NCBI RefSeq assembly: GCF_003097495.1
Contig: NZ_QEOP01000002.1
Span: forward strand, 1,302,001 to 1,366,000
Source: Amnibacterium flavum
GTDB taxonomy: Bacteria > Actinomycetota > Actinomycetes > Actinomycetales > Microbacteriaceae
DNA: 64,000 nucleotides
Direction: 5' to 3'
A program made the translations under genes and the position numbers. Below the pieces are notes generated by a model. The model did no database searches. It had not been told where the DNA came from and saw only the letters and a list, made by a program, of their open reading frames with translations. This document shows positions 8,161 through 46,744 of this stretch, one piece after another. Position 1 is the first letter of the stretch. Each line of letters opens with the position of its first letter.

Positions 8161-8174
8161 AGGAAGGCCCGGTA

Positions 8175-9665: not shown

Positions 9666-10137
9666 TCCACGGCCTGCGCGTCGCTACGCTCTGCGGGCGG
9701 CCACCCCGCCCGTTGAGCGCAGCGAAATGAAGGAACTCCCCCCGGCCCGGTGCCTGCGCGTCGCTTCGCTCGGCGGGCGGCCGCCCCGGCCCGTTGAGCG
9801 CAGCGAAACGAAGGGACTCCCCTCGGCCCACGGCCTGCGCGTCGCTGCGCTCTGCGGGCGGCCACCCCCGCCCGTTGAGCGCAGCGAAACGAAGGGCTCC
9901 CCTCCATCCCGGTGCCTGCGCGTCGCTACGCTCGGCGGCCGGCGGCGGTCTCCCCTACAGCCCGGTGCCTGCGCGTCGCTTCGCTCTGCGGGCGGCCACC
10001 CCCGCCCGTTGAGCGCAGCGAAACGAAGGGACTCCCCTCGGCCCACAGCCTGCGCGTCGCTTCGCTCTGCGGGCGGCGGCGGTCTCCCCTACAGCCCGGT
10101 GCCTGCGCGTCGCTTCGCTCTGCGGGCGGGCGGCGGG
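9665..10137 (+). repeat. second array of the 81-bp repeat (right of HNH gene)
   Basis: The same element as at 7.8-8.2 kb, same orientation. CGTTGAGCGCAGCGAAA starts at 9711, 9792 and 9873 (81 bp apart) and at 10007. Between and after these, partial units retain only the CCTGCGCGTCGCT(T/A)CGCTC half, joined by CGGCGGTCTCCCCTACAGCCC. This array is more diverged and rearranged than the left one. The stop codon of the gene at 10138-10608 sits at its right edge. The several short open frames across it are repeat-derived. Confidence 0.9.
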
Positions 10138-10608
10138 CTAGGCGAAGCGGAGGACGCGGAGGCCGGCGGCGTCGAGGGCCGCGTGACCGGCGCGCTCCCG
10201 GAACGAACGCCAGCCGCGGCGAGGCAGAAGTCCCGGCAGGGCGAGGGCTACCTGGTAGAGCAGTTCCGCCGCGAGCAGATTCTGTAGCTTGTCGGGCGCG
10301 ATGCGCGAGCGCTCGCTCTGCATGACGACCAATCGCACGGCGTCGGGAGCGACGACATGGTCGACAGCCCGGAGCATGCGCGACGCCTTCGTGAACGATG
10401 AGCGTCGCCCATCACGCTCCAACGCGAGGATCACGACCTGCGCCGGAGCTTCGGCCGTCTCGAGCGTCGTCAACGGGATGTTCGACTCCCGCGCACCCTG
10501 TCGCAGCACGTCGAGAAGCTCCCTCGCGTCGCCTTCGATCAGGATCGGGGTCTTCAGCAACCGCGACACCACCGCGCGCAATCGCGCTGCCTGCTTCGTC
10601 GACACCAT
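10138..10608 (-). CDS. hypothetical protein, last gene of the hut unit
   Basis: 156 residues that I do not recognise. It is hydrophilic, with alternating helices and strands (PTPILIEG-like and PAQVVILALERD segments), a hydrophobic stretch AAELLYQVALALPGLLP at about 112-128, and a basic C-terminus. No signal peptide or catalytic motif is obvious. It starts with ATG nine bases after the hutI stop, so it probably belongs to the histidine unit. Its 3' end abuts the repeat array and the C-terminus (AGLRVLRFA) may have been shaped by it. Confidence 0.55.
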   Translation of the reverse strand: MVSTKQAARLRAVVSRLLKTPILIEGDARELLDVLRQGARESNIPLTTLETAEAPAQVVILALERDGRRSSFTKASRMLRAVDHVVAPDAVRLVVMQSERSRIAPDKLQNLLAAELLYQVALALPGLLPRRGWRSFRERAGHAALDAAGLRVLRFA

Positions 10609-10617
10609 CGGTCGAGC

Positions 10618-11775
10618 CTACGGGTTGGCGACCGACAGCACCCGGGAGACGAGCGGCACTCCGGGCCGATAGGCGAAGTGCACGTAGCTGGGCGCCTCGA
10701 GCAGAACCAGATCGGCTCGGCCGCCGATCCGCACGCTGCCGACGTCATCCCGCCGAAGCGCCCTCGCCCCTCCCGCGGTCGCCGACCACAGCGCCTCCGC
10801 AGGAGTGAGCCCCATGTCGCGGACAGCGACCGCGATGCAGAACGGCATCGACGAGGTGTAGCTCGACCCCGGATTGCAGTCCGTCGCGAGCGCCACCGTC
10901 GCGCCCGCGGCGAGCAGTCGGCGGGCATCCGGATAGGGCTGTCGGGTCGAGAACTCGACCCCCGGAAGGAGCGTGGCGACCGTGGAGGATGCGCCGAGCG
11001 CGTCGACATCCGCCCCGCTGAGGAAGGTGCAATGGTCGACTGAGGCCGCCCCGAGCTCGACGGCCAACTGCACACCCGCCGACTCGCGCAGCTGCCCGGC
11101 GTGCATGCGGACTCCGAGTCCCTTCGCCTGACCGGCGAGGAGGATGGCGCGTGCCTCGTCGACATCGAATGCTCCCGCCTCGCAGAACACGTCGATCCAG
11201 CGCGCGAACGGAGCCGCCGCGTTCAACATGGCACCGGCGACCAGGGCGACGTAGGCGTCACGGTCGTCCGCGTACTCGGAGGGCACGACGTGGGCGCCGA
11301 GATAGGTCGTCTCGGAGGTCAGCTCGCGGGCGATGCGGAGGGCTCGCGATTCGTCCTCGATCGTGAGACCGTAGCCGCTCTTCACCTCGACCGTCGTCGT
11401 GCCCTGCGCACGCATCTCACCGATCAACCGAGCGGCATTCGCCCTCAGCGCGGAGTCGTTCGCCTTGCGGGTGAGCGCCACGGTGCTGTGGATCCCGCCG
11501 GCGGAGTAGGACCGTCCCGCCATCCGGCTCGCGAACTCGTCGGCCCGGTCCCCCGCGAAGACCACGTGGCTGTGGCTGTCGACGAAGCCCGGGATGACGC
11601 ATCGGCCGCCGGCGTCGATGCGGTCGTCAGCGGCGGGAGCATGCCTGCTCGCGCCGACCCAGACGATGGTCCCGTCGTCGATGATGACCGCAGCATCGAC
11701 GAGCTCGGCGGTGCCCGGCCCGATCTCCGGATCGTTGGTCACGAGCAGACCGATATTGTCGACGATCGTCGTCAT
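10618..11775 (-). CDS. hutI: imidazolonepropionase
   Basis: 385-residue amidohydrolase-superfamily enzyme catalysing the third step of histidine breakdown: opening of 4-imidazolone-5-propanoate to N-formimino-L-glutamate. Visible are the metal-binding [16 protein letters not shown] (His68, His70), KSGYGLT (a substrate-binding segment typical of HutI), the HAGQL histidine and the metal-ligand Asp in ATDCNPGSS. Length is close to the family norm (about 400). ATG 11775 overlaps the hutF stop (ATGA) and is preceded by GGAAGGG, so it is preferred over a start at 11904. Cytosolic. Confidence 0.96.
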
Positions 11776-13052
11776 GGACGGACCCTTCCTATGGCGGCGG
11801 AGAGCAGGGAGGCGATATCTCCGAGACGGTGCACGCCGCCGGTCACGACAAGCTCGCCGTCCACCACGACTTCTCGGACGTCGGCGGCCGAGGCCGTCAG
11901 CCACATCTGGCCGGGGTCCGAACCGGCGGTCCGTGTGCTGGTGTCATCGACCGCGACCAGGTCGCACAGCGCGCCGGGTGCGATGGCCGCGACGTCCCAT
12001 CCGAGGGACGCGTACCCGTTCGCGCCGGCCGCCTCCAGCAGGTCGCGGGGTGCGAACCGTCCCCGCTCGCCGCTCGCGAGCCGCTCGTTCATCTCGAGAC
12101 CACGGATCTCCTCGAAGGGGTCGACGACCGCGTTCTGATCACTGCCGAGGGTCAGACGGACCCCCGCGTCGTGCAGCGCTCGAGCGGGACCGATGCCGTC
12201 GCCGAGGTCGCGCTCGGTCGTCGGGCAGATGCAGGCGAAACCGGTGCTCAGCGCCGCGACGTCGTCGTCGACGAGATGGGTCGCGTGCACGGCGGTGAAG
12301 CGGGGGCCGAGCAGATCGGCGAGGAGACGGACGGGCGTGCTCCCCCACCGCTCGATGGCCTGCTCGTTCTCCGCGGGCTGCTCGCTGACATGCGCATGCA
12401 GCAGGTCGAGGTCGAGATCCACCACCTCGGCGATGGCCGCCGGGGTCACCCCCCTCACCGAATGCAGCGCTGCACCGATCCGCGCCCGGCGACCCGGCAC
12501 GAGGCGGGAGCGGCGTCGATGCCAGGCCTGCACCGAGCCGTCGCTGAATCGGCGCTGCCTATCAGAGATCGGTATGTCGATGCCTCCCTCGAGGTAGAGG
12601 GTGTCGAGGAGCGTCAGCCGGATCCCCGCATCGGCTGCCGCGGACAGGATGGCCTGCTCCATCGCGTCCGCCTCATAGGCCGTGCCGTCGGGCAGGTGAT
12701 GCACGTAGTGGAACTCGCCGACCACCGTGTATCCGGCGAGGACCATCTCGGCGAACACGGCGGTGGCGAGCTCACGGTAGTTCTCGGGGGTCAGTGCGCC
12801 CGCGACGGCGTACATGCGCTCGCGCCAGCTCCAGAACGAGCCGCCATCGGCGTGGGTCGTGCCGCGAAGGGCACGGTGGAACGCGTGCGAGTGCCCGTTC
12901 GCGAAGCCGGGCAGCACGAGTCCCGGGAGGATCGTGCCGGCCGGAGGAGCATCGGGGGTGACGGACAGCACCCTGCCGCGGTCCTCCTCGATCCTGACCC
13001 CGTGGGCGATGGAGGTGGGAAGTACCGCATGCTCGGCCCAGAACAGATTCAC
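11772..13052 (-). CDS. hutF: formimidoylglutamate deiminase
   Basis: 426 residues, amidohydrolase superfamily. HutF converts N-formimino-L-glutamate to N-formyl-L-glutamate and ammonia, the first half of the two-step branch that avoids direct release of formamide. Zinc ligands appear in [15 protein letters not shown] (His54, His56), with later HAHVSEQ and AVHATHLVD and the [12 protein letters not shown] aspartate. It overlaps hutI and the M20 amidohydrolase by four bases on each side (ATGA), so the order is translationally coupled. The presence of HutF predicts that an N-formylglutamate amidohydrolase is needed next. Confidence 0.95.
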
Positions 13053-14239
13053 GAGGCTCGAGATCGGAGGATCGACCTGAGCGCCGCCACTCCGAGGTCG
13101 CAGTCGTCGGGCTCAGCCCGTTCGGCTGGCGCATGCGAGATGCCGGTCGGGTTGCGGACGAGGATCATGGCCGCCGGGATCCCCGCGAGGGCGATCACCC
13201 CCGCGTCATGGCCCGCCCCGGACGGCAGGCGCGGCACGGAACCGCCCAGCACCCCGTCGACGCTCGCGGTGAGGTCGGCATCGAATGGCGTCGTGGAGGT
13301 CCAGGATTCCTCGACCAGCTCGACGCCCAGCTGGGCGATCGTCTCGCGCACGCGGGACTCGTCGTCGCCGCGGGCGTCGATCCAGGCCGACACGAGACCC
13401 GGCACCGCGTTCACGGCTCCCGGCTCTACCTTCACCTTGCCCACGGTCGCGAGGATGCCGGCGGCGCGCGCCCGCTGACGGACGTCGAGCACGAGCCGGG
13501 CGAGACCGATCATCGGGTCGTCGCGATCGGCCATCGGAGTCGTCCCCGCGTGGTTCTGGCTTCCCGCGATATCCGCTCGCCACCGACCGTGAGGCCAGAT
13601 GCAGGTGGCGAGCCCGAGCGCCGATCCAGCGGCGCCGAGGCCTGCGGATCCGGAGTCGGTGCGCAGGTGTCCCTGTTCGACATGGAGCTCGATGAACTCG
13701 CCGATGCGAGCGATCCGCCGCCGGTCCGCGCCGAGATCGGCGGGGGCGATCCCCACTCGGGCCATCGCCTCGGCGAGGGTCACCCCGTCCACGTCCCGGA
13801 GCGCGAGGGCGCTCGCCGGGCTGATCGATCCCGTCAGGAGGCGCGATCCCACGCAGGCGACCCCGAAACGGGCGCCCTCCTCGTCGGCGAAGGCGACGAC
13901 GGCGATCGGCCGGGACGGTTCGAAGCCGTCCCTCTGCAGGTCGCCGATCGCAGCGAATGCCGATGCGACGCCGAGTGGACCGTCGAATGCGCCTCCGCTC
14001 GGCACACTGTCGAGGTGCGAGCCGAGCACGAGCGCCGACCCGGGTGCCGCTTCGTTCCACCACGCCCAGAGATTGCCGTTGCGATCCGTCTCGACGTCGA
14101 GTCCGAGAGCCGCGGCGCACTGCTCGAACCACTGGCGGCACTCCGTATCGACGTCCGTCCAGGCGAACCTGTCGAACCCGCCGGAGCGCGGGTTGCGCCC
14201 GACCTCGGAGAGCTCGTCGAGCAGCCCGATGGCCGACAT
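13049..14239 (-). CDS. M20 allantoate-amidohydrolase-like enzyme, probable N-formylglutamate hydrolase
   Basis: 396-residue di-metal M20 amidohydrolase of the hydantoinase/carbamoylase group. Metal ligands are in GSHLDSVPSGGAFDGPLG (His75, Asp86), ADEEGARFG (the general-base and metal-binding Glu pair 120-121), and the later HVEQG and SGAGHD motifs. Family members hydrolyse N-carbamoyl amino acids or allantoate. Here it sits between hutF and hutU with 4- and 1-base overlaps, and no HutG is present, so I infer that it completes the pathway by cleaving N-formyl-L-glutamate to glutamate and formate. Other actinobacterial hut clusters, as I recall, have the same arrangement. Confidence 0.85.
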   Translation of the reverse strand: MSAIGLLDELSEVGRNPRSGGFDRFAWTDVDTECRQWFEQCAAALGLDVETDRNGNLWAWWNEAAPGSALVLGSHLDSVPSGGAFDGPLGVASAFAAIGDLQRDGFEPSRPIAVVAFADEEGARFGVACVGSRLLTGSISPASALALRDVDGVTLAEAMARVGIAPADLGADRRRIARIGEFIELHVEQGHLRTDSGSAGLGAAGSALGLATCIWPHGRWRADIAGSQNHAGTTPMADRDDPMIGLARLVLDVRQRARAAGILATVGKVKVEPGAVNAVPGLVSAWIDARGDDESRVRETIAQLGVELVEESWTSTTPFDADLTASVDGVLGGSVPRLPSGAGHDAGVIALAGIPAAMILVRNPTGISHAPAERAEPDDCDLGVAALRSILRSRAS

Positions 14240-15888
14240 CAGTGCTCCCGCATCGGCACTCGGACTCCGAGCCGATCGGCGACGACCTCCGCCTCCTCGT
14301 AACCGGCGTCCACGTGCCGGAGCACGCCCATTCCCGGATCGTTGGTGAGCACCCGGGCGAGCTTCTCCGCCGCGAGAGGCGTGCCGTCGGCCACGGTGAC
14401 CTGCCCGGCGTGGATGCTGCGACCGATTCCCACGCCTCCACCGTGATGGATGGACACCCAGGTCGCCCCGGAGGACGTGTTGACGAGAGCGTTGAGCAGC
14501 GGCCAGTCGGCGATCGCGTCGGATCCGTCCTTCATGGCCTCGGTCTCGCGGTACGGGGAGGCCACAGAACCGGCGTCGAGGTGGTCGCGACCGATCGCCA
14601 GCGGTGCGGAGACCTCTCCGGAGGCGACGAGCTCGTTGAACCTCAGCCCCGCCCTGTCGCGCTCGCCGTAGCCGAGCCAGCAGATGCGGGCCGGCAGACC
14701 CTGGAAGTGGACGCGCTCCCCCGCCATGCGGATCCACTTGGCCAGCGACTCGTTCTCGGGGAAGAGCTCGAGCACCGCTCTGTCGGTGGCCGCGATGTCT
14801 TCCGGGTCTCCGCTCAGCGCCGCCCATCGGAACGGGCCGCGCCCTTCGGCGAACAGGGGACGGATGTAGGCGGGGACGAAGCCGGGGAAGGCGAATGCGT
14901 CGCCGAACCCGGCGGCGAGGGCTTCGGTGCGGATGTTGTTGCCGTAGTCGAAGACCTCTGCTCCCTGCTTCTGGAAGCCGACCATCGCCTCCACCTGCTG
15001 AGCCATCGACTGCCGCGAGGCGTCGACGAAGCCGGGGTCGGCGCGTGCGGCGGCCCAGTCGTCGACCGAGTACTCGGTGGGAAGGTAGGCGAGCGGATCG
15101 TGAGCGCTGGTCTGGTCGGTGACGATGTCGATCTCCGCGCCCATCGCGAGCATCTGCGGGAACACCGTCGCCGCATTGCCGAGCAGACCGATCGAGAGCG
15201 GCTTCCGTGCATCGCGTGCGGCGTAGGCGAGCTCGAGGGCGTGCGTGATCGACGTCGCCTCGACGTCGAGGTAGCGATGCTCGATACGACGGGCGATGCG
15301 GGACGGGTCGACGTCGACGCAGATCGCGACGCCGTCGTTCATCGTCACCGCCAGGGGCTGGGCACCACCCATTCCGCCGAGTCCGCCGGTCAGGGTGATC
15401 GTTCCGGCGAGGCTCCCGCCGAACTTCTTTGCGGCCACCGCGGCGAAGGTCTCGTAGGTTCCCTGGAGGATCCCCTGCGTGCCGATGTAGATCCACGACC
15501 CGGCGGTCATCTGCCCGTACATGGTCAGACCGAGCTGCTCGAGTCGCCGGAACTCGTCCCAGTTCGCCCAGTCGCCGACGAGGTTGGAGTTGGCGAGCAG
15601 CACCCGCGGCGCCCACTCGTGGGTCTGGAGCACGCCGACCGGCTTGCCCGACTGGACGAGAAGGGTCTCATCGCCTTTCAGGGTCGCGAGCGTGCGGGTG
15701 ATCGCATCGAAGCTGGCCCAGTCGCGGACCGCCTTTCCGGAGCCCCCGTAGACGATCAGCTCGTCGGGATGCTCCGCGACCTCGGGGTCGAGGTTGTTCT
15801 GCAGCATGCGGAGGGCTGCCTCCTGCGGCCAGCCGAGCGTGTTGAGATTCGTGCCGCGATGGGCGCGGACCGGGCGTGCTTCGCTCAT
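14239..15888 (-). CDS. hutU: urocanate hydratase
   Basis: 549 residues, the usual urocanase length. The enzyme adds water to urocanate using tightly bound NAD+ as an electrophile, giving imidazolonepropionate. Recognisable segments are [20 protein letters not shown] near residues 33-52, the glycine-rich NAD+ motif [19 protein letters not shown], and [13 protein letters not shown], which carries the conserved active-site Cys region. The start codon overlaps the hutH stop (4 bases) and the stop shares one base with the next start (TGATG). Cytosolic homodimer by analogy with the family. Confidence 0.97.
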
Positions 15889-17438
15889 ACGAGCTCTCCT
15901 CCTGCTGTGCGGGCTGCGTCGAGCAGCGAACCGTCGATCACCATCGCGTGGGCCCTGGCGATCTCGGGGGCGAGATATCGGTCGGTGCCGGGTCCGTCGA
16001 TCGTGGTGCGCATGCGGGCCACCACCGCTCCGGTCACGACACCGGGAACCGCGGGTGCTCGCATGTCCATCGCCCGCGCCGCGGTGAGCAGTTCGATCGC
16101 GACGACGCGGGAGACGCCGTCGACGACGCGACGGAGCTTCCGCGCTGCGGCCCAGCCCATCGAGACGTGGTCCTCCTGCATGGCGCTCGACGGGATCGAG
16201 TCGACGGAGGCCGGCACGGCGAGACGCTTGAGCTCGCTGACGATCCCCGCCTGCGTGTACTGGGCGATCATGTGCCCCGAATCGACTCCCGGGTCGTCAG
16301 CCAGGAAGGCGTTGAGCCCGTGGTTCCGGGACACGTCGAGGAAGCGGTCGGTGCGCCGCTCGCTCATGCTGGCGAGGTCGGCCGCGGCGATCGCGAGGAA
16401 GTCGAGCACGTAGGCGACGGGGGCGCCGTGGAAGTTGCCGTTCGATTCGATCCGGCCGTCCTCGGTCACCACGGGGTTGTCGACCGCGGAGGCGAGCTCG
16501 CGAGATGCGACGGTTGCGGCGTGGTCGATCGTGTCGCGCACGGCGCCGTGGACCTGCGGGGCGCACCGCAGCGAATAGGCGTCTTGCACCCGGGTGAAAC
16601 CCGCCGGTCGCGCGAGCATCGGCGAGCCGATCAGCGCATTCCGCATGTTGGCCGCCGAATCGCGTTGCCCGGGGTGCGGCCGGAGGCCCTGGAGGTCGTC
16701 GGCGAAGACCGCGTCGGTGCCGAGGAGGCCCTCGACACTCATCGCCGCCGCGAGGTCGGCGGTGGTGATGAGCGCGCGCAGGTCGGTGATGGCGAGGACC
16801 AGCATGCCGAGCATGCCGTCCGTGCCGTTGATGAGGGCGAGTCCCTCCTTCTCGTGCAGTTCGAGGGGGGCGATTCCCGCGGCCGCGAGGGCGTCGCCCG
16901 CCGGCATCAGGATTCCGTCGGCGTCGCGGACGTCGCCCTCGCCGATGAGGGCGAGCGCGCAGTGCGCGAGCGGGGCCAGGTCGCCCGAGCAGCCGAGGCT
17001 GCCGTACTCGCCGACCACCGGGGTGATGCCCGCGTTGAGCACGGCGGCGTAGGTCTCCGCCACGAGGGGCCGCACCCCGGTGCGCCCCGTGGCCAGAGTC
17101 GAGAGGCGCAGCAGCATCAGCGCCCGGATCACCTCGCGCTCGACCTCCGGGCCGGTTCCGGCAGCGTGGCTGCGGATGAGCGACCGCTGGAGCTGGGCGC
17201 GCAGCTCCACGGGGATCTGCTTCGACGCCAGAGCGCCGAAGCCCGTCGAGACCCCGTAGTGCGGTCGACTGTCGGCGGCGAGCCCGTCGATGACGGAGCG
17301 GCTCGTCGCCATGGCCTCGAGCGATCGCTCGCTGACGCGGACTTTCGCGTCTCGGCGCGCGACGTCGACGACGTCCTGGAATGACAGCGCGCCGACGTCG
17401 ATGACGACGTCGAGCGTGTCGGTGAGAGCGGTGTTCAT
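15885..17438 (-). CDS. hutH: histidine ammonia-lyase
   Basis: 517 residues, aromatic amino-acid lyase family. HutH removes ammonia from L-histidine to give urocanate using the self-formed MIO electrophile. The MIO triad is Cys150-Ser151-Gly152 in [14 protein letters not shown], where most family members have Ala-Ser-Gly; I believe the Cys variant also occurs in other actinobacterial HutH. The catalytic tyrosine is in HYGVSTGFG (Tyr61). It heads the coupled hutH-U-amidohydrolase-F-I block, 109 bases after the DUF3830 gene, with a GC-rich hairpin (17500-17532) between them. No HutC or HutP gene is present. Confidence 0.96.
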
Positions 17439-17499
17439 TGGAGCCTTGCCTTGCGAGCGGGACCGGCGACCGGGGTCGTCCGGTGAGAGAGGGAGTCGA

Positions 17500-17532
17500 C
17501 CCCGGCGGCGTCGGGACGCGGCGCCGCCGGGG
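17500..17532 (-). terminator. GC-rich hairpin between DUF3830 gene and hutH
   Basis: CCCCGGCGGCG at 17500-17510 is complementary to CGCCGCCGGGG at 17522-17532 (11 bp, 11-base loop). No U-run follows on the minus strand, so it is more likely a partial terminator, attenuator or mRNA-stability element that adjusts hut expression relative to the upstream transport genes than a full stop. Confidence 0.5.
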
Positions 17533-17547
17533 GACGTGGGGAGTGGA

Positions 17548-17973
17548 TCAGGCTGCGATCGCGAGTTCGACCAGCTGACCCTGCTGCAGCCAGTTCTTCA
17601 TCCCGGCGAGAGCGAGCTCGAGCTCGCCCTCGACGACCTCGCCGATGTAGCTGATCTTCAACGGCTCGTCGGCCAGGTCGTCGCCGTACACGACGCAGAA
17701 CTGCTGGCGTGGGTTGTACCAGCACACGGAGCCGCGGGCGTAGCCCTTCTCCTTGCGGCGCAGGGCTCCGACCTCCTCGGTCAGGTAGACGTTCTCCCAC
17801 GGTGCGACGATCGGCATGGTCCAGAAGACCATCTCGCCGACGATCTTGCCGTGCTGGAGGATGCTCTTCTGCGGCAGGTTCTCCTTGAGCGCGGCGACGA
17901 TCCCGGGGACCAGCTCCTCGAAGACCTGGATCTTGCAGACCTCGACACCGTCGACGGACATGATGAGTTTCAT
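17548..17973 (-). CDS. DUF3830 cyclophilin-fold protein, copy A
   Basis: 141 residues. By motif and length this is a DUF3830-type protein with a cyclophilin-like fold: strands at the N-terminus (MKLIMSVDGVEVCKIQVFE), the segment GEMVFWTMPIVAPWENVY, and a conserved core W-Y-N-P-R-Q-Q-F-C-V-V-Y-G-D-D followed by SYIGEV. It is paralogous to 18605-19042, sharing PRQ-x-F-x-V-x-Y-x-DDLA-x-EPL. This fold forms the N-terminal half of cucumopine/mikimopine synthase, as I recall, and the gene is paired with the helical-bundle gene at 18006. GAAGGA upstream of ATG 17973 sets the start. Cytosolic; specific function inferred. Confidence 0.8.
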   Translation of the reverse strand: MKLIMSVDGVEVCKIQVFEELVPGIVAALKENLPQKSILQHGKIVGEMVFWTMPIVAPWENVYLTEEVGALRRKEKGYARGSVCWYNPRQQFCVVYGDDLADEPLKISYIGEVVEGELELALAGMKNWLQQGQLVELAIAA

Positions 17974-18005
17974 TTCGTGTGTTCCTTCGATCTCGACGTT
18001 GTCGC

Positions 18006-18482
18006 TCAGGCGCTGACGCGCTTGAAGCCGTTGGTGACACCCCAGGGGAAGACGGCGTCGACCCACATGTGCACCTTGTTGACGTAGCTGATGGCCGCGG
18101 CGGTGAGTTCGAGGAACTCCTCGATGCTCTCCGCGGAGTTAGCGGCCTCGACGTAGCGGGCGATGTGACCGCCGGCCTCGGGCATTCCGACGAAGTCGAA
18201 GAATGCGGCCTTATAGCCCACGATCTGGTTGACGAGCAGTTGGACCGTGACGAGGTCGAGCTTGTTGGTCTCGCTGACCTCGATGATCCCCCACAGCACC
18301 TCATCGGACAGGGTGCGCGCCTCGCTCTCGGCGAACATCAGCGTGGACAGGTACTGCCCGTGGGTTCCGGTGTTGCGGGGGATGATGCCCTTGCCCATAT
18401 TCACGATCTCCTGGGGGCACTCCAGCCAGATCTTCTCGCGCTCGGCGTTCAGCTCCGCGATTACCTCGGTGACGATGCTCAC
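18006..18482 (-). CDS. cucumopine-synthase-related helical-bundle protein, copy A
   Basis: 158 residues, predicted almost entirely helical. Conserved with copy B are GIIPR-x-TG, YAE/FAE-SEARTLSDE-type helix, YKAAFFDFVGMP, and the C-terminal VNKVHMWVDAVFPWG. About half of all positions match copy B by eye. I recognise it as the family related to the C-terminal helical bundle of cucumopine synthase. It is encoded 32 bases upstream of its DUF3830 partner; together (158 + 141) they approach the length of the one-piece synthase. I infer a two-subunit enzyme acting on a histidine conjugate. Confidence 0.75.
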   Translation of the reverse strand: MSIVTEVIAELNAEREKIWLECPQEIVNMGKGIIPRNTGTHGQYLSTLMFAESEARTLSDEVLWGIIEVSETNKLDLVTVQLLVNQIVGYKAAFFDFVGMPEAGGHIARYVEAANSAESIEEFLELTAAAISYVNKVHMWVDAVFPWGVTNGFKRVSA

Positions 18483-18604
18483 TGGGAGCCTCTCCTTCTG
18501 TTCTTCTCGTTCATTGGTGGGTGTGCTGCGGGCAGGCTGAAGCAGCGCCGATCCGGGAGTCGAGTCCGAGATCGGCAGAGGATCCGCTGGCGCCGCGTTC
18601 GGGC

Positions 18605-19042
18605 TCAGGCCGCTTCGGCTTCGCGGATCCGGAGTTCGACGAACTTGTCCTGCTTGCGCCAGGTCTCCTCGCCGACGAGCTTCAGCTCGGTCATGCCGTC
18701 GATGACCTCGCCGATGTAGCTGTTGGCCAGCGGCTCGATCGCCAGGTCGTCGCTGTACGTGACGCCGAACACCTGGCGGGGGCTGTAGAAGATGACGGCG
18801 CCTTCGACCGATCCGGTGGCTTCACGGCGCTGGGCGACCATGTCCTGAGTGAGGATCAGGTTCTCCATCGGGATCACCAGAGGGAGGACCGCGAACAGCT
18901 GGTCTCCGACGAGGGTCGCGTGCTGCAGTTTGGTGCGGATGGGGAACTGCTCCCGGAACACGGCGGCGGTCTTCGGAACGACGTCCTCGAAGATCCGAAT
19001 GGCGCAGATGTACTTCTCGTCGACGATGAAATCGATGATCAT
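18605..19042 (-). CDS. DUF3830 cyclophilin-fold protein, copy B
   Basis: 145 residues, paralogue of copy A: FYSPRQVFGVTYSDDLAIEP and NSYIGEVIDG align with the same core in A, while the first 60 residues are more diverged. In copy A the core has Cys and Gly where B has Gly and Ser, so the two may differ in substrate or stereochemistry. ATG 19042 is preferred because AAGGAAG lies eight bases upstream; an ATG at 19078 overlapping the preceding stop would add 12 residues without matching copy A. It forms a pair with the helical gene at 19075. Confidence 0.8.
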   Translation of the reverse strand: MIIDFIVDEKYICAIRIFEDVVPKTAAVFREQFPIRTKLQHATLVGDQLFAVLPLVIPMENLILTQDMVAQRREATGSVEGAVIFYSPRQVFGVTYSDDLAIEPLANSYIGEVIDGMTELKLVGEETWRKQDKFVELRIREAEAA

Positions 19043-19074
19043 GGGGCTGTCTTCCTTGGTCGGCTCGGCGGGGG

Positions 19075-19563
19075 TCATGCGGTCTGCTTGGCGTCGGCGC
19101 GCGGGAACGCGGTGGCGATCCCCCAGGGGAAGACGCTCTGGATCCACATGTGCACGCGGTTGGTGTACGAGAGCGCGGCACCGGTGACGAGCGCGAACTC
19201 CTCCAGAGTCTCGGCAGCCCTCGCCCCCTCGGCGTAGCGGTGGATCCACTTGCAGGTGAGGGGCAGCCCGACGAAGTCGAAGAAGTCGGCTTTGTAGTCG
19301 ATGATCTGGGTCACGAGCTTCTTCATCGTGGCGAGGTCCGTGTCCGGCTGGCCGGCGACCTCGATGAAGCCCCACAGGATCTCGTCGGCGAGCGTGCGTG
19401 CCTCTCCCTCTGCGTAGAGCAGCGAGGTGAAGTACTGCTTCTTGGGGCCGGTGAGACGGGGGATGATTCCGTTGCCGAGGTCGCGGACGTCCTCGGGCAG
19501 GGTGAGCCAGATTCGCTCGCGCTCGGCATCCAGTTCTGCGATGACGTCGTGTACTTCAGACAT
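19075..19563 (-). CDS. cucumopine-synthase-related helical-bundle protein, copy B
   Basis: 162 residues, all-helical, with the same landmarks as copy A (NGIIPRLTG, EGEARTLADEILWGFIEV, YKADFFDFVGLP, NRVHMWIQSVFPWG). The His-Met-Trp and Phe-Pro-Trp-Gly clusters near the C-terminus are the most strongly kept residues and may face the active site formed with the cyclophilin-fold partner. GAAAGGAC lies four bases before ATG 19563. It lies 41 bases after the SDR gene in the same unit. Function inferred from family and neighbours. Confidence 0.75.
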   Translation of the reverse strand: MSEVHDVIAELDAERERIWLTLPEDVRDLGNGIIPRLTGPKKQYFTSLLYAEGEARTLADEILWGFIEVAGQPDTDLATMKKLVTQIIDYKADFFDFVGLPLTCKWIHRYAEGARAAETLEEFALVTGAALSYTNRVHMWIQSVFPWGIATAFPRADAKQTA

Positions 19564-19604
19564 TGGTGTCCTTTCAGGTAGCGGGGAGGTGCGGGGTCGA
19601 TCGG

Positions 19605-20381
19605 CTAGATGTGCACGCGCCCCCCGTCGATCGGCACGGTCACCCCGTTGAGTGAGGCGGGAGCCTGAGCGAGGAACATGAGCACGTCGATGACGTCGTC
19701 GATGCTCGTCTCGCGAAGCACGTTGCCCTTCACGACGGTCGTCTCGCGGGACACGGGGTCCTCGCCGCGGGTGAGTCGAAGGGCGTCGTTCGCGCCGTCG
19801 TCGGAACGGAAGAACTGGGTCGGGGCAATGCTGTTGCACTGGACGGTGGGGCTGAGGGTCACGGCGAGCTGCTCCATGAGCCGCCCGAGACCGGTCTTCG
19901 CCACGATGTGCGGGGCGAAGTCGGGCCACACCTCTGTGAGCGAGTTCCCGAGGATCGCGAGGATCCGGCCGCTGCCCTGCTCCGTCATCACGCGCGCGGC
20001 CGCCTGGGAGAGGAAGAAGGGGCCTCGGAGATTGACCCCCAGCGAGGAATCGAAGTCCGACACCCGCAGTTCCGCGAACGGCCGGGGCGCGAAGGTGCTC
20101 GCATTGTGGATGAGGAGGTCGAGTCGTCCGGTCTCGGCGACGATCCGTTCCACCATGGCGGCTGTCGCCGCGGGATCGGTGATGTCGGCTTCGATGGGAT
20201 GCATCCGCTCCCCGTACCCGTGCGTCTCCGCACGCGAGATCGTGCTCGCGGCCTGGTCCCCCTGCCCGAAGTGGTTGAGGTAGACGGTGGCGCCCTCGCG
20301 CGCGAAGGCTGCGGCGATCTCGGCGCCCGCGCGTTCGGCGGCACCGGTGATGAGGGCGACGGTTCCCTCGAATCGGCTCAT
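19605..20381 (-). CDS. SDR-fold protein lacking the catalytic tyrosine (His instead)
   Basis: 258-residue classical short-chain dehydrogenase/reductase by fold: Rossmann start VALITGAAERAGAEIA, DITD, IHNAS in place of NNAG, and a C-terminal DGG. In the active-site YxxxK position it has His158-Ile-Val-Ala-Lys162, so the proton-donating tyrosine is replaced by histidine, while Lys162 and the upstream Ser147 remain. The TGxxxGxG turn is altered too (TGAAERAG). It may have altered chemistry, bind NAD(P) only structurally, or be a partner of the adjacent SDR, with which it overlaps by four bases. Confidence 0.85.
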   Translation of the reverse strand: MSRFEGTVALITGAAERAGAEIAAAFAREGATVYLNHFGQGDQAASTISRAETHGYGERMHPIEADITDPAATAAMVERIVAETGRLDLLIHNASTFAPRPFAELRVSDFDSSLGVNLRGPFFLSQAAARVMTEQGSGRILAILGNSLTEVWPDFAPHIVAKTGLGRLMEQLAVTLSPTVQCNSIAPTQFFRSDDGANDALRLTRGEDPVSRETTVVKGNVLRETSIDDVIDVLMFLAQAPASLNGVTVPIDGGRVHI

Positions 20382-21121
20382 ACCCGCTCACCGCCGGCGA
20401 GTGCGATCGTCTGTCCCGTGACAGCGGAGGACGAAGGGGCGAGAAGCCACCGGACCGTGTCGGCGATGTCCTGCGGGACCGGCAGGGGAAGGACCCGCCG
20501 GAGCGCCCCGACCTCGTCGAGCGATGCGAACGCCGGATCCTCGTCGACGAGGTCGCCCTGATCGACAGCTACCCGGCCCGGGCTGACGATGTTCGCGCGA
20601 ACCCCGTTGCCGCCCTCCTCGAGAGCGAGCACCTGGGTCAGCACGGTCGCCGCGGCTTTGCCCGCCCCGAAGAGTCCGAGCCCCGGATGCAGTCGCGATG
20701 CGAGGGCACCGCCGATGAGGACGACGGAACCCGACGCGCGGCGCAGGCCCGGGAGCACGGACCGGCAGAGGTGGGCGTGGCCCCGGTAGCCGAGCAGACC
20801 GGCGTCGAGGGCGCCGTCGTCGTAGTCCGCGACCGGACCGCTGGGCACGGCGGGCCATGCGGCGTTGACCATGTCCTCCACGCTCCCCCAGGTCGACTCG
20901 AGCTCGCGGATCGCCGCATCGACGGCCGCCGCATCGGATAGCTCGACCTGCACGACGGCGTGGCCTGCGGGATCGGGAAGCGAGGCGACGAGCTCGTCGG
21001 CGATGTCGCGCCGACTGCGGCAGTGCACCGCCACGCGGTAGCCCGAGGCGGCGAGGTCGCGAGCGATGACGCGTCCGATCTGCCCCGTCGCGCCGCCGAC
21101 GAGCACTCGGCGCGCCGTCAC
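20378..21121 (-). CDS. SDR-fold protein lacking catalytic Ser and Tyr
   Basis: 247 residues. The cofactor loop GGATGQIGR (9-17) is intact and the D/S-D acidic position after the third strand is kept, so nucleotide binding is plausible. At the active site the sequence is LIGGAL where Ser is expected and Phe151-Gly-Ala-Gly-Lys155 in place of YxxxK, so both Ser and Tyr are gone. The NNAG motif is VNAAW. It overlaps the ABC ATPase gene and the next SDR gene by four bases each. Two adjacent Tyr-less SDRs suggest a heteromeric pair; this is inference. Confidence 0.85.
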   Translation of the reverse strand: MTARRVLVGGATGQIGRVIARDLAASGYRVAVHCRSRRDIADELVASLPDPAGHAVVQVELSDAAAVDAAIRELESTWGSVEDMVNAAWPAVPSGPVADYDDGALDAGLLGYRGHAHLCRSVLPGLRRASGSVVLIGGALASRLHPGLGLFGAGKAAATVLTQVLALEEGGNGVRANIVSPGRVAVDQGDLVDEDPAFASLDEVGALRRVLPLPVPQDIADTVRWLLAPSSSAVTGQTIALAGGERV

Positions 21122-21897
21122 CGGGTGCTCCGCATCAGGAAGCTCTTGATGCGCGGAGAGCGCTCGGGATCGAGCACCTCCCTGGCGGGGCCCGACGCCT
21201 CGACGACGCCGTCGGCCATGAAGACGACCTGATCCGAGACGTCGCGAGCGAAGGCGATCTCGTGGGTGACGACGATCATCGTCGTGCTCGAGTCCTCGGC
21301 GAGGCGCCGCATGACGTCGAGGACCTCTCCCACCAGTTCGGGGTCGAGAGCGCTGGTGGGCTCGTCGAAGAGGATCAGCTCGGGCTTCATCGCGAGAGCT
21401 CGGGCGATCGCGACGCGCTGCTGCTGCCCGCCGGAGAGCTGACCGGGATACTCATCGGCCTTGGCCGCGAGCCCGACCGATGCCAGGAGCTCTCGCGCCT
21501 CCTCCTCCGTCTCGCGCTTGGGGCGCCCGAGCACGACCTGCGGACCTTCGACGAGGTTCGCGAGAACCGTCTTGTGGGGGAACAGGTTGAAGTTCTGGAA
21601 GACCATGCCGATGCGCTGCCGCTGGCGGCACAGGTCGCGGTCGGAGAGCTCGTAGTACTTCCCGCCGCGCTCCTCGTACCCGATGATGTTGTCGCCGACG
21701 CGGATCAGTCCGGAATCGATGGGGATGAGCCGGTTGATCGATCGGAGGAGGGTCGACTTGCCCGACCCGCTGGGTCCGAGCACCGAGGTGACGGTGTTCG
21801 CGGGGACGTGGAAGGACACCCCCTTCAGGACCTCGTTGTGGTGGTAGCGCTTGTGGACGTCGCTGACGTCCACCGACTGGCTCGTCGCCTCGATCAT
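21118..21897 (-). CDS. polar amino-acid ABC transporter ATPase (GlnQ/HisP type)
   Basis: 259 residues: Walker [11 protein letters not shown]-loop [12 protein letters not shown], signature [15 protein letters not shown], Walker [16 protein letters not shown] and H-loop VVTHEIAFA. The Q-loop wording and length are those of the polar amino-acid uptake family, energising import of amino acids or opines (the family includes octopine and nopaline systems). ATG 21897 overlaps the permease stop (ATGA). An insertion [16 protein letters not shown] after the A-loop region is typical of several actinobacterial members. Confidence 0.92.
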
Positions 21898-22817
21898 CGT
21901 GTTGCCGCCTTTCCGCCCCGGCGGAGCAGGTGGGACATCCCGCGTCCGCTGACGCCCGCCTCGGCGAGGGCGCCGCGGCCGAAGTGGGTCTCGATCTGCG
22001 CTTGGCCGATGCTGAGGAGCGAGGTGAGCACCAGGTACCAGATCGACGCGGTCAGCAGGAGCGGAATCACCTCGAAGGTGCGCGAGTAGATGCTCTGCGC
22101 GCTGTACATCAGATCGGACAGCGCGATCACGGAGACGAGGGATGTGGACTTGAGCATGCCGATCGTCTCGTTGCCGGTCGGCGGGATGATGACCCGCATC
22201 GCCTGGGGCAGGATGATCCGCCGGAAGGCCTGGTAGCGCGTCATGCCGATCGAGGTCGCAGCCTCGCGCTGCCCGGTCGACACCGACAGGATCCCGGCGC
22301 GGATGATCTCCGCCAGGTAGGCGCCCTCGTTGAGCCCGAGTCCGAGGATCGCGGCGAGCAGAGGTGTGATGACCGAGTTCGTGTCGACGGTGACGAAGGG
22401 TTCGAGGAAGGGGATCCCGAAGGTCAGCTCGGGGAACAGGTAGCCCAGGTTGTACCAGAAGACCAGCTGGACGAGCACCGGGGTGCCGCGGAAGAACCAG
22501 ACGTAGAAGCTGCTCGACCAGCGCAGGGTGCGGCTGGCCGAAGTGCGCATGACCGCGATCACGACCCCGAGGGCGAGACCGATGACCATGGCGATGAAGG
22601 TCAGGAAGATCGTCATCCCCAGGCCCGCCAGGATGCGGGGGTTGAACAGGTAGCCGACGACGACGTCCCACTGGAAGCGCTCGTTGGTGGCGACGGTGAT
22701 GACGAGGAGGAGGGCGAGGATCAGCACCAGGACGATTCCGGCGATCCGCCAGGGGTGCTTGAGCGAGACGAAGTGCGTCACGACTTCCGGCGCTGTCTCG
22801 TGTGTCGGGGTGCTCAT
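21894..22817 (-). CDS. polar amino-acid ABC transporter permease (HisM/GlnP type)
   Basis: 307 residues with a cytosolic leader and about five to six membrane helices. The HisM/GlnP family features are FYVWFFRGTPVLVQLVF, the coupling loop EAATSIGMTRYQAFRRIILPQAMR (E-A-A-x-x-x-G motif) and the STSLVSVIALSDLM segment. Only one permease gene is present, so it probably acts as a homodimer. It lies between the ATPase (4-base overlap) and the binding protein (65 bases away, with a strong hairpin at 22850-22880). Substrate not predictable from sequence alone. Confidence 0.92.
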   Translation of the reverse strand: MSTPTHETAPEVVTHFVSLKHPWRIAGIVLVLILALLLVITVATNERFQWDVVVGYLFNPRILAGLGMTIFLTFIAMVIGLALGVVIAVMRTSASRTLRWSSSFYVWFFRGTPVLVQLVFWYNLGYLFPELTFGIPFLEPFVTVDTNSVITPLLAAILGLGLNEGAYLAEIIRAGILSVSTGQREAATSIGMTRYQAFRRIILPQAMRVIIPPTGNETIGMLKSTSLVSVIALSDLMYSAQSIYSRTFEVIPLLLTASIWYLVLTSLLSIGQAQIETHFGRGALAEAGVSGRGMSHLLRRGGKAATR

Positions 22818-22849
22818 CTGCTCCGCTTCTCTCCGAAAGGGATGGGGGT

Positions 22850-22880
22850 CATCGGGGGCCGGTCGGACCGGCCCCCGATG
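22850..22880 (-). terminator. hairpin between binding-protein and permease genes
   Basis: CATCGGGGGCCGGTC (22850-22864) pairs with GACCGGCCCCCGATG (22866-22880). It sits just downstream of the binding-protein stop. Such stem-loops usually stabilise the binding-protein mRNA and reduce read-through to the permease, giving excess receptor. No U-run is present. Confidence 0.65.
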
Positions 22881-22882
22881 GG

Positions 22883-23776
22883 TCAGGAGATGGGGCGAGT
22901 GGTCGCCAGGTTGATGCCCGGCTCCTCGAGGGCGAGCGAGCTCATGCCCCACTTGTCGAGGATCTCGGCGTAGGTGCCATCGGCGATGACCGCCTCGAGA
23001 CCGGCGAGGAGGGCGTCCTGGAGGTCGGTGTTGTCCTTCTCGACGACCATTCCGAGGTACTTCTGCGGGAACGACTCGATCGATGCGTAGTTGATCGGGG
23101 TCGGCGCCGTCTGGTTGAGGTAGGCGGCGGCGGAGGTGCCGAGGATCATGAAGTCGACGCGACCCGAGTTGAGCGCGTTGTAGGTGTCAGCCGCGTTCGG
23201 GTACTCCTGGATGACGACGGGGTCGAGGCCGGCCTCCGCGCACGCGGGGTTGAGGATCTCGTTGACCTTGTCGATCGTGTCGAAGCCGGTCTGGGCTCCC
23301 ATCGTCTCGCCGCACAGGCTGAGGTCGTCGCCCTCGGTGATCGGCCCGTCGTAGGACTCGATCGTGACGACGTCGGTCTTGTCGAAGATGTAATTGACGA
23401 ACGACACCTGTTCCTCGCGCTCGACGTTGTCGCTGATGCACTCCATCGCGATGTCGTAGCGACCGCTCTGCACGCCGGGGATCAGGCTGGCGAACTGGGT
23501 GTTCTCGACCTCGAGGGTGACTCCGAGCTTCTCGGCGATGGCGTCCCACAGGTCGACCTCGTAGCCGATCATGACGTCGGAGCCTTCTTCGAAGTACTGG
23601 CAGGGCGGGTAGTTGGCGTCGGTGGCGAGGGTGAGCGTCTCGCCCTGGAAGGGACTCTCGACCTCGGCGGCGGCGGTGGCCTCAGGAGCCGCGGGGGTGC
23701 TGCAGGCGGTGAGGGCGAACGCCCCCACGACCGTGATGCTCGCGAGGACGGTGGCCCGCTTGGTGATGGTCTTCAT
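22883..23776 (-). CDS. amino-acid-type ABC transporter substrate-binding lipoprotein
   Basis: 297 residues, SBP_bac_3 family. The signal peptide ends in a lipobox (GAFALTACS), so the protein is anchored to the outer face of the membrane through the lipidated Cys. The mature part opens with LTLATDANYPPCQYFEEGSD and has GYEVDLWDAIAEKLGV, the first-lobe pattern of polar amino-acid and opine receptors. Four further cysteines could make disulfides. It is the first gene of the long unit ending at hutI, facing away from the IclR regulator. By context the ligand is histidine or a histidine-containing compound (inference). Confidence 0.92.
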   Translation of the reverse strand: MKTITKRATVLASITVVGAFALTACSTPAAPEATAAAEVESPFQGETLTLATDANYPPCQYFEEGSDVMIGYEVDLWDAIAEKLGVTLEVENTQFASLIPGVQSGRYDIAMECISDNVEREEQVSFVNYIFDKTDVVTIESYDGPITEGDDLSLCGETMGAQTGFDTIDKVNEILNPACAEAGLDPVVIQEYPNAADTYNALNSGRVDFMILGTSAAAYLNQTAPTPINYASIESFPQKYLGMVVEKDNTDLQDALLAGLEAVIADGTYAEILDKWGMSSLALEEPGINLATTRPIS

Positions 23777-24122: not shown

Positions 24123-24133
24123 GCGGAGTGGAC

Positions 24134-24901
24134 ATGAGCGATATTCCGGCTGCGCGGCACACGTTGCGGGTTCTCAAGTACGTGGCGAATCAGAGCGGGC
24201 CGGTGCGGGCGTCGACCATGTCGCGCGAGCTCGACATCCCGCGCTCCACGATGTATCAGCTGATCAAGGTGATGCAGGACGAGGGCTTCCTCGTGCACTT
24301 CCCCGAGGATCGGGTCTACGGCCTCTCGCCGCTGGTCTCCGAGATCGGCTCGAACTACCTGCGCACCTCGAAGCTGAGTCGACTCGCGGAGCCGCTTCTC
24401 GAGAAGCTCGTCAAGAGGATGGGTCTGCCCGTCGTCGCGCACCTCGGGGTCCTGCACGGCGACGACATCGAGTACGTCGTGAAGTACTCGGCCGTCCGCG
24501 CCCCGACCCTGGTGACCGACATCGGCGTCCACCTGCCGAGCCATCTCACGGCGACCGGTCGAGCCATCCTGTCCCGCCTGCCGAAGGAGCAGGTCCGGGC
24601 CCTCTACCCCCACCAGGCCAGCCTGACCACGCGCAACGGCCGCGGCCCCGCGAGTCTCCGCGAGCTCGACGAGATCCTGAACGAGACACGGATCCGGGGC
24701 TACGCGATCGAGACGGGCGAGATCACCCCCGAGTACGCGTCGGTCGCCGTCGCGGCCCTGGACCACAACGACTATCCGGCCGCGGCGATCGGCATCACCT
24801 TCCGCAAGATCGCCGTCGACATGGGCTTGTGGAAGCAGCTGGGTGCGGCGGCTCAGATCTCGGCGGGAGCCCTGAGCATGCGCATGCGCGGCAAGATCTA
24901 G
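24134..24901 (+). CDS. IclR-family transcriptional regulator
   Basis: 255 residues. Winged HTH at residues about 5-65 (SGPVRASTMSRELDIPRSTM recognition region) and a GAF-like effector domain with the IclR signature around HLPSHLTATGRAILSRLP. Family members sense small metabolites and act as repressors or activators of a divergent catabolic operon. Here the divergent unit is the transporter/DUF3830/hut operon and the intergenic region holds two matching sites, so this is its probable regulator; the effector might be the imported compound or urocanate. ATG 24134 is preferred over GTG 24128 because GGCGGAG lies five bases upstream. Confidence 0.9.
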   Translation: MSDIPAARHTLRVLKYVANQSGPVRASTMSRELDIPRSTMYQLIKVMQDEGFLVHFPEDRVYGLSPLVSEIGSNYLRTSKLSRLAEPLLEKLVKRMGLPVVAHLGVLHGDDIEYVVKYSAVRAPTLVTDIGVHLPSHLTATGRAILSRLPKEQVRALYPHQASLTTRNGRGPASLRELDEILNETRIRGYAIETGEITPEYASVAVAALDHNDYPAAAIGITFRKIAVDMGLWKQLGAAAQISAGALSMRMRGKI

Positions 24902-25419
24902 CCGGCGATCCGGACGAGGTACCCGCTGCCCGCGCAGTCGAAAGTGCGGTGCACCTCGACCGCGTCGAGCAGGCCGAGCTCGCCGTAGGGGGTCTTCATC
25001 GAGGTGTCCAGACTGACGAGGAAGCTGATCCCGTCACCCGGTGCGACTCGCCCCTGCACCGGGTGGATCGATCCCGACAAGCGTCCGCGCACCATGAGGT
25101 TGAGATCCAGCACGGGCTCGCCGACGGGCGTCGCGTGCGCCGGTGACCCGCCCGAGAACTCGAATGCGGGGCCGCCGACCTCGAGCCGACTGACGACGCC
25201 GTCGACGGTGAGGTCGAGCGCGCCTCCGGCGACGACGGCGAGGGTCCTGGTGACCCCGTCAAACGGGGAGAACGGCGCGGGCCCGGTGACCGTCGCCATG
25301 CTGAGCCGCCAGTCGAAGACACCCTCAGCGGGGCTCCGGCGGATCTCACGTGTCTCGCCGAGGCCGTTGGCCCAGCCCATGACGACGTAGTCGTCGAAGC
25401 GCATGATCCGGGGCGGCAC
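24898..25419 (-). CDS. hutD: HutD-like cupin protein
   Basis: 173 residues, HutD family (double-barrel beta fold). The N-terminal MGWANGLGETREIRR (W-x-N-G-x-G-x-T-R/E motif) and DWRLSMATVTGPAPFSPFDG are the family hallmarks. HutD occurs with histidine-utilisation genes and, from work in Pseudomonas, is thought to limit hut induction, perhaps by binding a pathway intermediate; no enzyme activity is established. Here it is separated from the main hut block and ends the HutD/M20/DUF1028/peptide-transport unit, which ties that unit to histidine. GTG 25419 or ATG 25404 could be the start. It overlaps the iclR stop convergently. Confidence 0.85.
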   Translation of the reverse strand: MPPRIMRFDDYVVMGWANGLGETREIRRSPAEGVFDWRLSMATVTGPAPFSPFDGVTRTLAVVAGGALDLTVDGVVSRLEVGGPAFEFSGGSPAHATPVGEPVLDLNLMVRGRLSGSIHPVQGRVAPGDGISFLVSLDTSMKTPYGELGLLDAVEVHRTFDCAGSGYLVRIAG

Positions 25420-25499
25420 CCGTTCAGACTAGAAGAGGCAGGGTCGCCCGTCGGTCGCCCCACCCGAAGCGACCGACCCGGAGGCTGTCGGCCTGCCGC

Positions 25500-29780: not shown

Positions 29781-29832
29781 GGTGCTCCTTATGTTGCGGT
29801 TGTGGTGAGGAGAGGGCGGGCGGCGCGGAGGC

Positions 29833-46689: not shown

Positions 46690-46703
46690 GACAGCACCTT
46701 CAC

Positions 46704-46744
46704 GGCCAGTCTTGTCGCGTTCCGGGTACTGATCCCTCGTCCGG
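46704..46744 (-). ncRNA. guanidine-III riboswitch (ykkC-III)
   Basis: Read on the minus strand from 46744 to 46704, the 41 nt contain CCGGACGAGG, then GTACCCGG and GACAAGAC followed by G and C pairs. This order, spacing and length match the guanidine-III aptamer (as in the Thermobifida fusca structure, which is also 41 nt). It folds as an H-type pseudoknot. The aptamer ends 14 bases before the sugE start; the ribosome site GAAGG lies between, so guanidine binding probably frees or exposes it. Confidence 0.92.

Follow-up and report, generated by a model that had tools for sequence, protein, structure and literature searches.

A putative catabolic operon for cyclised histidine adducts, with two split Pictet-Spenglerase-type enzyme pairs, in Amnibacterium flavum

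What does a bacterium break down with an operon that joins an amino-acid importer and a histidine utilization (Hut) pathway to two pairs of proteins resembling the halves of cucumopine synthase? The question is raised by a 64,000-nucleotide stretch of the Amnibacterium flavum genome (contig NZ_QEOP01000002.1, positions 1,302,001 to 1,366,000; hereafter the window), in which the operon occupies positions 10138–23776 of the minus strand. The host genome is 3.57 Mb long (completeness 99.99%). An importer, Pictet-Spenglerase-family pairs that may cleave an opine and the Hut pathway, a gene set of the kind expected in an opine-catabolic operon, are encoded together at this locus. We consider it likely that the operon is catabolic and serves the use of a cyclised adduct of L-histidine with a carbonyl compound, whatever the carbonyl part. 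As in cucumopine and mikimopine, the latter is most likely an oxo-acid; we give the 2-oxoglutarate adduct roughly the same odds as all the others combined, and spinacine is a serious candidate.

A preceding sequence-only reading had described a one-strand unit with short gaps or 4-nucleotide (nt) overlaps, and the gene coordinates agree. All of the named genes are present, overlapping by 1–4 nt or separated by 9–122 nt, in the transcription order substrate-binding protein (SBP), permease, ATPase, two short-chain dehydrogenases/reductases (SDR1 and SDR2), helA, cypA, helB, cypB, hutH, hutU, an M20-family gene, hutF, hutI and an open reading frame (ORF) for 156 amino acids. Overlaps of 4 nt are found at the permease/ATPase, ATPase/SDR1, SDR1/SDR2, hutH/hutU, M20/hutF and hutF/hutI junctions, and one of 1 nt between hutU and the M20 gene. 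The gaps measure 65 nt (SBP–permease), 41 nt (SDR2–helA), 32 nt (helA–cypA), 122 nt (cypA–helB), 32 nt (helB–cypB), 109 nt (cypB–hutH) and 9 nt (hutI–last ORF). By eye, a purine-rich stretch lies upstream of the start of each of helA, cypA, helB and cypB; a promoter and terminator scan gave no signal exceeding that of shuffled sequences.

The helical-bundle halves, encoded by helA (19075–19563; this and all following operon genes are on the minus strand) and helB (18006–18482), belong to the Cucumopine_C family (PF18631), with scores of 147.6 bits (E-value 3.5e-43) and 148.7 bits, respectively, against a Pfam cut-off of 27. Their partners, encoded by cypA (18605–19042) and cypB (17548–17973), had been assigned to DUF3830 (PF12903). 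That part of the earlier description did not hold, as their scores of 22.3 and 19.1 bits fall under the curated cut-off of 26; judged from their sequences, the two are cyclophilin-like relatives, not certified DUF3830 members. Since a search with the CypB protein alone gave weak PDB matches, its fold was assigned with a profile of 26 cyclophilin-like relatives (A4), which matched KslB residues 194–315 (1.4e-11) and McbB residues 26–160 (1.3e-7). Profile A3 matched the complementary parts of these chains, McbB 181–331 at 5.7e-31 and KslB at 3.4e-13. Structure models of the B pair (HelB and CypB) agree with these matches, each subunit fitting the expected half of a solved Pictet-Spenglerase, so for this pair the predicted structural match to the synthase halves was borne out. 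The operon pair has a cyclophilin-like domain of the McbB/KslB type and departs from the single-chain form of the family in that the two domains are encoded by separate genes.

The column of the catalytic Glu is occupied by Glu in all 26 A4 sequences, including the residue kept in CypA and E103 of CypB, which corresponds to McbB Glu97 (a numbering that we deduced). Across clades, Glu is kept in 62 of 65 distinct domains, and the remaining three are gapped fragments. A conserved Arg (McbB Arg72) was discarded because its column depends on the alignment, with R in 47 of 64 rows, which include the window's own copies and duplicates, versus 32 of 65. The operon pairs share both domains with the mikimopine and cucumopine synthases, whose amino-acid partner is histidine, with 2-oxoglutarate as the other substrate of cucumopine synthase; these synthases (genes mis and cus) differ in being fused, located on transferred DNA (T-DNA) for expression in plants and placed in other clades. 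McbB and KslB likewise have both folds and the catalytic Glu but are single-chain biosynthetic enzymes acting on tryptophan; KslB joins L-Trp and 2-oxoglutarate, according to the available text of PMC12513458 and the title of PDB entry 9nst. Cucumopine_C-like genes with no cyclophilin-like partner within the stretch were seen at four loci, L037, L048, L036 and L003 (the last two being short); L037, in a gut Lachnospiraceae bin, has two such copies.

An ordinary actinobacterial Hut operon consists of hutH, hutU, hutF, hutI and an M20-type gene; here the importer, the SDRs and the two pairs are added. The hutH-U-(M20)-F-I order given by the sequence-only reading was confirmed, each gene product passing an NCBIfam cut-off. 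Histidine ammonia-lyase (hutH, 15885–17438) scores 634.9 bits with TIGR01225 (cut-off 539), urocanate hydratase (hutU, 14239–15888) 897 bits with TIGR01228 (cut-off 375), imidazolonepropionase (hutI, 10618–11775) 368.4 bits with TIGR01224 (cut-off 298) and formimidoylglutamate deiminase (hutF, 11772–13052) 520.5 bits with NF006681 (cut-off 362; the same protein reaches 397.9 bits with TIGR02022, below the cut-off of 413). HutH, HutU, HutI and HutF, the enzymes of the HutF-type pathway, thus all exceed curated cut-offs, and in a whole-genome protein search the operon hutH was the sole match in the genome. The M20-family amidohydrolase (13049–14239) scores as an 'allantoate amidohydrolase' equivalog (NF006770, 508 bits, cut-off 372). 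Because no match to the HutG-type deformylase family (PF05013, FGase) was found anywhere in the genome, this protein is likely to be the N-formylglutamate hydrolase that replaces HutG. Its homologues are located downstream of hutH or hutU in four related loci (L016, L017, L018 and L020).

The importer is of the amino-acid ATP-binding cassette (ABC) type, as had been claimed: the permease (21894–22817) passes the cut-off of TIGR01726 (HEQRo_perm_3TM; 72.1 bits, cut-off 42.2), and the ATPase (21118–21897) was assigned from its translation. The SBP (22883–23776), with a signal peptide and a lipobox-like start by eye, passes no listed NCBIfam cut-off, its best score being 113.9 bits with TIGR01096 (cut-off 256). 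Its homologues (47–93% identity) are found at L016–L018, L020, L021, L022, L042, L051 and L052, and those of the ATPase (52–85%) at the same loci.

We propose that this importer would take up the adduct, and that each helical-bundle protein would form a complex with the adjacent cyclophilin-like protein that rebuilds a Pictet-Spenglerase active site. Working in reverse, the catalytic Glu might help to protonate the imidazole ring carbon, upon which the C–C bond would open to an iminium; its hydrolysis would release L-histidine and the carbonyl compound, perhaps 2-oxoglutarate. Histidine would then be converted by HutH, HutU, HutI, HutF and, presumably, the M20 hydrolase to glutamate, formate and ammonia.

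The A pair (HelA and CypA), together with SDR1 (20378–21121; PF13561, 109.3 bits) and SDR2 (19605–20381; PF00106, 113.2 bits), may constitute a second module that probably serves a substrate form differing in stereochemistry or oxidation state. The NCBIfam model closest to SDR2 is pteridine reductase (125.8 bits, below the cut-off of 288). In the window, the usual position of the catalytic Tyr holds Phe in SDR1 and His in SDR2. Both proteins had been described as Tyr-less SDRs; for SDR2 this was upheld, with His in five of the five aligned sequences, but for SDR1 it is not a constant trait, since Tyr is absent in three of five and present in two. Both SDRs accompany the A pair at L016–L018 and L020, and neither had a match at L022, L051 and L052 next to the single pair found there. 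Homologues (35–36% identity) recur at the distantly related loci L059 (genome G697) and L060 (G537), along with a Cucumopine_C gene, an M20 gene, two ABC ATPase genes and an aromatic ammonia-lyase, HutH-like and barely over the hutH cut-off; such repeated co-occurrence suggests a role for the SDRs within the pathway. Epimerisation of cucumopine at C4 via an imine was considered as their role and dropped because, from general chemistry, C4 of the 2-oxoglutarate adduct carries no hydrogen.

The Cucumopine_C family is rare. We found it in 2 of 60 genomes of near relatives including A. flavum itself (the other being G057, at 37 bits), in one of nine genomes of the genus (its own) and in 13 of 397 genomes from the order of Consotaella. 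A draw of 396 genomes across the phylum was of no use for a linkage test because the family was found in the A. flavum genome only. The closest relatives of the operon are three Microbacterium loci (L016–L018), whose pair proteins are 79–96% identical to those of the window and in which the importer, SDR1, SDR2, A pair, B pair and hutH follow one another as in the window. The same order continues in L017 and L018 with hutU, M20, hutF and hutI; in L016, hutH is followed by the M20 gene, and no hutU, hutF or hutI match was found by tblastn. As all three genomes have a second hutH elsewhere, the operon hutH is an extra copy there. An Actinotalea locus (L020) has both pairs, the SDRs, the importer and hut genes in a rearranged order. 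With the order repeated in L017 and L018, largely in L016 and rearranged in L020, the arrangement is not due to chance. The A pair with its SDR module was seen in the window, the three Microbacterium loci and Actinotalea. Outside the actinobacteria, the combination of importer, pair and hut genes is repeated at L022 (Consotaella), L051 (G710) and L052 (G773), each with one pair of the operon's clade and an importer that is 48–62% identical; hutC is present at L022 and L051, and the cyp gene comes first at L052.

The link between such pairs and histidine genes, which the sequence-only reading had offered as a check, was found in two samples, a PF18631 cluster being counted as linked when located no more than 10 kb from a hutH above the cut-off. 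In 15 genomes, which represent 15 of 23 loci, 31 PF18631 genes formed 24 clusters, 11 of them hutH-linked, against 0.16 expected and a maximum of 4 in 200,000 simulations. The eight loci left out were a contig of a genome already sampled (L035), a distant Lachnospiraceae match with no cyclophilin partner (L037) and the shorter stretches L024, L026, L031, L034, L036 and L038; tblastn found a hutH adjoining the pair in L031, a hutH-like gene below the cut-off in L035 and no hutH in L024, L026, L034, L036, L037 and L038. In the draw from the order of Consotaella, hutH lies within 10 kb in six of the 13 genomes with the family (G458, G710, G773, G553, G697 and G537), against 0.04 expected and a simulated maximum of 3 in 200,000. 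Two of these are marginal (G697 and G537, with hutH scores of 541.2 and 539.4 versus a cut-off of 539.15), and G832 and G768 have a hutH-like gene below the cut-off 12–13 kb away. G457 and G458 are common to both samples; without them the count in the order draw is 5 of 11. Among the 17 loci with split pairs of the same clade as the operon pairs (hereafter window-type), eight are hut-linked (the window, L016, L017, L018, L020, L022, L051 and L052). All eight are among the 11 that have a window-type importer gene in the stretch, the others being L021, L042 and L040 (in the last, the permease alone); none of the six loci lacking it is hut-linked (hypergeometric p of ~0.007, calculated by hand and ignoring kinship). 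Of 15 loci with mikimopine-type split pairs (L005, L006, L007, L024–L034 and L038), seven have hutH in the stretch, by annotation in L007 and by tblastn in L025, L027, L029, L030, L031 and L032; the other eight, several of which are on short contigs, have none there.

In a tree of 48 helical domains, the window-type split proteins form a group of their own (16 rows, support 99/97), and the tree further contains a mikimopine-type split group including mikimopine synthase (MIS; 15 rows, 100/98), a fused CypHel group (5 rows, 98/95), a weakly supported fused HelCyp group including cucumopine synthase (CUS; 11 rows, 85/81) and a single McbB-like row. Each of the four groups includes members associated with hut genes. 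The deep branching order is unsure because of the long branches of Rhodococcus, Nonomuraea and MIS. The A and B pairs fall into two supported window-type subgroups, with the Actinotalea copy basal in each. In a tree of the joined subunits, the B pairs cluster with the single-pair loci (Shimodaira–Hasegawa-like approximate likelihood ratio test 95.3, bootstrap 84), and the A pairs remain outside, with low support for the root fork. Given these positions in the two trees, the A and B pairs look older than the Microbacterium operon, or brought together, and less like a fresh tandem copy.

The opine plasmids of Agrobacterium offer the nearest parallel. In our scans with a T-DNA border pattern, a border repeat of pRi1724 (L005, 12889–12911; no mismatch, chance mean 0.02) has a fused gene (25138–26064) on the same side as RolB-family genes, and on the opposite side a split pair (27055–28022), after which come genes for an amino-acid importer and for hydantoinase A/B. 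The available text of two papers places mis near the right-hand T-DNA border of pRi1724 (PMC5606197) and riorf22 and riorf23, mis homologues, in the non-T-DNA part of the plasmid, with no function stated there for the latter two (PMC4242671). The non-T-DNA pair resembles the operon in that the cyclophilin-like and helical halves are encoded separately and an amino-acid importer is close by, but differs in its reversed gene order and separate clade. On pRiO132, the fused gene of the RolB side is set apart from the catabolic side by a border repeat that has one mismatch; on the catabolic side, two more fused relatives stand between hutC-hutH and hutF-I-G-U-D, a stretch with no border repeat. The same catabolic genes are found on plasmids pTiLBA1190 and pAtAG67, whose examined stretches contain no border repeat; the accessible part of PMC10745273 describes pAtAG67 as lacking T-DNA and Vir and having a cucumopine-catabolic region, credited to Hooykaas et al. 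(2022), where the plasmid genes may already have been described. Like the operon, these three plasmids bring together, within a single region, an importer for amino acids, proteins of the Pictet-Spenglerase family and a complete set of hut genes. They have two fused proteins (CypHel and HelCyp), hydantoinase A/B, HutC and HutG, whereas the operon has two split pairs, two SDRs, an IclR-type regulator and the M20 protein. No T-DNA border repeat was found in the window at up to two mismatches. Synthase-family genes set between importer and hut genes on a plasmid devoid of T-DNA are the strongest reason to suppose a catabolic role in bacteria. A further fused relative was seen on the Paraburkholderia plasmid pSYMBR3459 (L008, 8980–9966), beside hisG and the gene for an ATP phosphoribosyltransferase regulatory subunit; a second copy is near hutH-U-D-I-F-G.

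Several observations weigh against a histidine-adduct catabolic role. The solved relatives are known to catalyse cyclisation, not cleavage, and we infer both the catabolic direction and the exact adduct. The window clade stands apart from those of mikimopine and cucumopine and groups with neither mis nor cus; window-type and mikimopine-type split proteins are 22–28% identical. The operon has none of the hydantoinase genes of the plasmid regions, and the annotation of the 28 kb pRi1724 region includes no hut gene. Nine of the 17 window-type loci (L019, L021, L023, L040, L042 and L053–L056) have no hutH within ~10 kb, so that histidine may not be the product at all of them. A glutamine-synthetase-like gene is in the neighbourhood at L021 and L040; at L040 (2229–6875), the pair also shares its stretch with Rieske oxygenase, aldo-keto reductase and Fer2 genes, and the locus carries a luciferase-like gene, possibly representing a different pathway. 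ABC importers with at least two ATPase genes are found at L023, L053, L055 and L056 (L054, a short contig, has one ATPase). With neighbours of these kinds, part of the window-type clade may act on something else.

Such loci, in particular those with glutamine-synthetase-like and Rieske genes, would also fit a use of the fold for some other reaction close to histidine degradation, for example the isomerisation or opening of a different imidazole compound, with no Pictet-Spengler bond involved; we regard this as unlikely, because the catalytic Glu and both halves are kept across clades and the hut linkage recurs in separate clades. Even less probable, in our view, is that the pairs run forwards to make a histidine alkaloid, with the hut genes tuning histidine supply. 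McbB and KslB are synthases, and the SDRs could tailor a product, but a binding-protein importer, a degradation pathway and the genome's only hutH share one unit here, and relatives are located in opine-catabolic plasmid regions. A chance assembly of neighbours around a pair unrelated to histidine is very improbable: 13 of 24 clusters and seven of 13 genomes are not hut-linked, but the linked ones far exceed the simulated maxima. The most serious contender, which we hold to be possible though not favoured, overlaps with the catabolic reading: the same reverse mechanism would act on an adduct with another carbonyl compound, be it spinacine (histidine and formaldehyde) or a pyruvate or glyoxylate adduct. 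It agrees with the position of the window clade apart from both opine clades and with the presence of one clade member in Methylobrevis, a methylotroph. Against it stand the use of 2-oxoglutarate by KslB and by cucumopine synthase and the lack of a dedicated aldehyde dehydrogenase among the operon genes that were run against families.

Beyond the single operon, we lean, with some reserve, towards a two-subunit retro-Pictet-Spengler lyase family whose descent is separate from that of the opine enzymes of Agrobacterium; actinobacteria and proteobacteria would use it to feed on cyclised histidine alkaloids, and the second pair and the two altered SDRs would handle a further substrate form. Plasmid regions for cucumopine catabolism are already known, at least at the level of regions. 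Neither the form that is split, duplicated and SDR-linked nor its occurrence beyond Agrobacterium was found in the literature, in a search that left subscription papers mostly uncovered; the available text of papers on cucumopine and mikimopine catabolism names no enzyme that cleaves cucumopine-type opines, and searches for DUF3830, PF18631, PF12903 and Cucumopine_C returned no papers. If correct, this would be a previously unrecognised bacterial way of feeding on cyclised histidine compounds, and would suggest histidine alkaloids as a nutrient beyond crown galls and hairy roots. In Arachis, nearly every species studied is reported to have intact cucumopine-synthase-like genes, which are expressed in cultivated peanut (PMC11351324), and spinacine is reported to arise wherever histidine meets formaldehyde (PMC9814826), so that histidine adducts may reach soil without Agrobacterium. 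An operon outside Agrobacterium offers a test of a reverse Pictet-Spengler enzyme in a family so far known as synthases, and the two-gene form provides a handle for biocatalysis.

Divergent from the operon is a gene for an IclR-type regulator (24128–24901, plus strand; PF01614 and PF09339), the probable regulator of the operon; its homologue is also divergent in L016–L018 (80–87% identity), and in L019 (51%) and L020 (43%) it adjoins the B pair. Convergent with it, a HutD-family gene (24898–25419, minus strand; PF05962, 105.8 bits) is possibly an outlying operon member. At the opposite end, the 156-amino-acid ORF (10138–10608), possibly outside the operon, has no Pfam match up to an E-value of 1 and no homologue among the kept tblastn matches in L016–L038. 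Just beyond the operon 3′ end (7904–10129), a 49-nt unit occurs ten times, spaced mostly 80–82 nt apart, and a longer unit of 125 nt is present in seven copies that are at least 60% identical; the repeats form two blocks that flank a DUF222/HNH gene (8175–9665) at both ends. Upstream, a second gene run on the minus strand (24898–33484) comprises the HutD gene and genes for an M20 amidohydrolase, a DUF1028 protein, a dipeptidase-like amidohydrolase, a proline-iminopeptidase-like hydrolase and an Opp/Nik-type ABC transporter; most members score below equivalog cut-offs, and the run is perhaps a peptide-use cluster. Farther away, the window contains a Guanidine-III riboswitch (46701–46764, minus strand), which scores 55.5 bits against a gathering score of 36.

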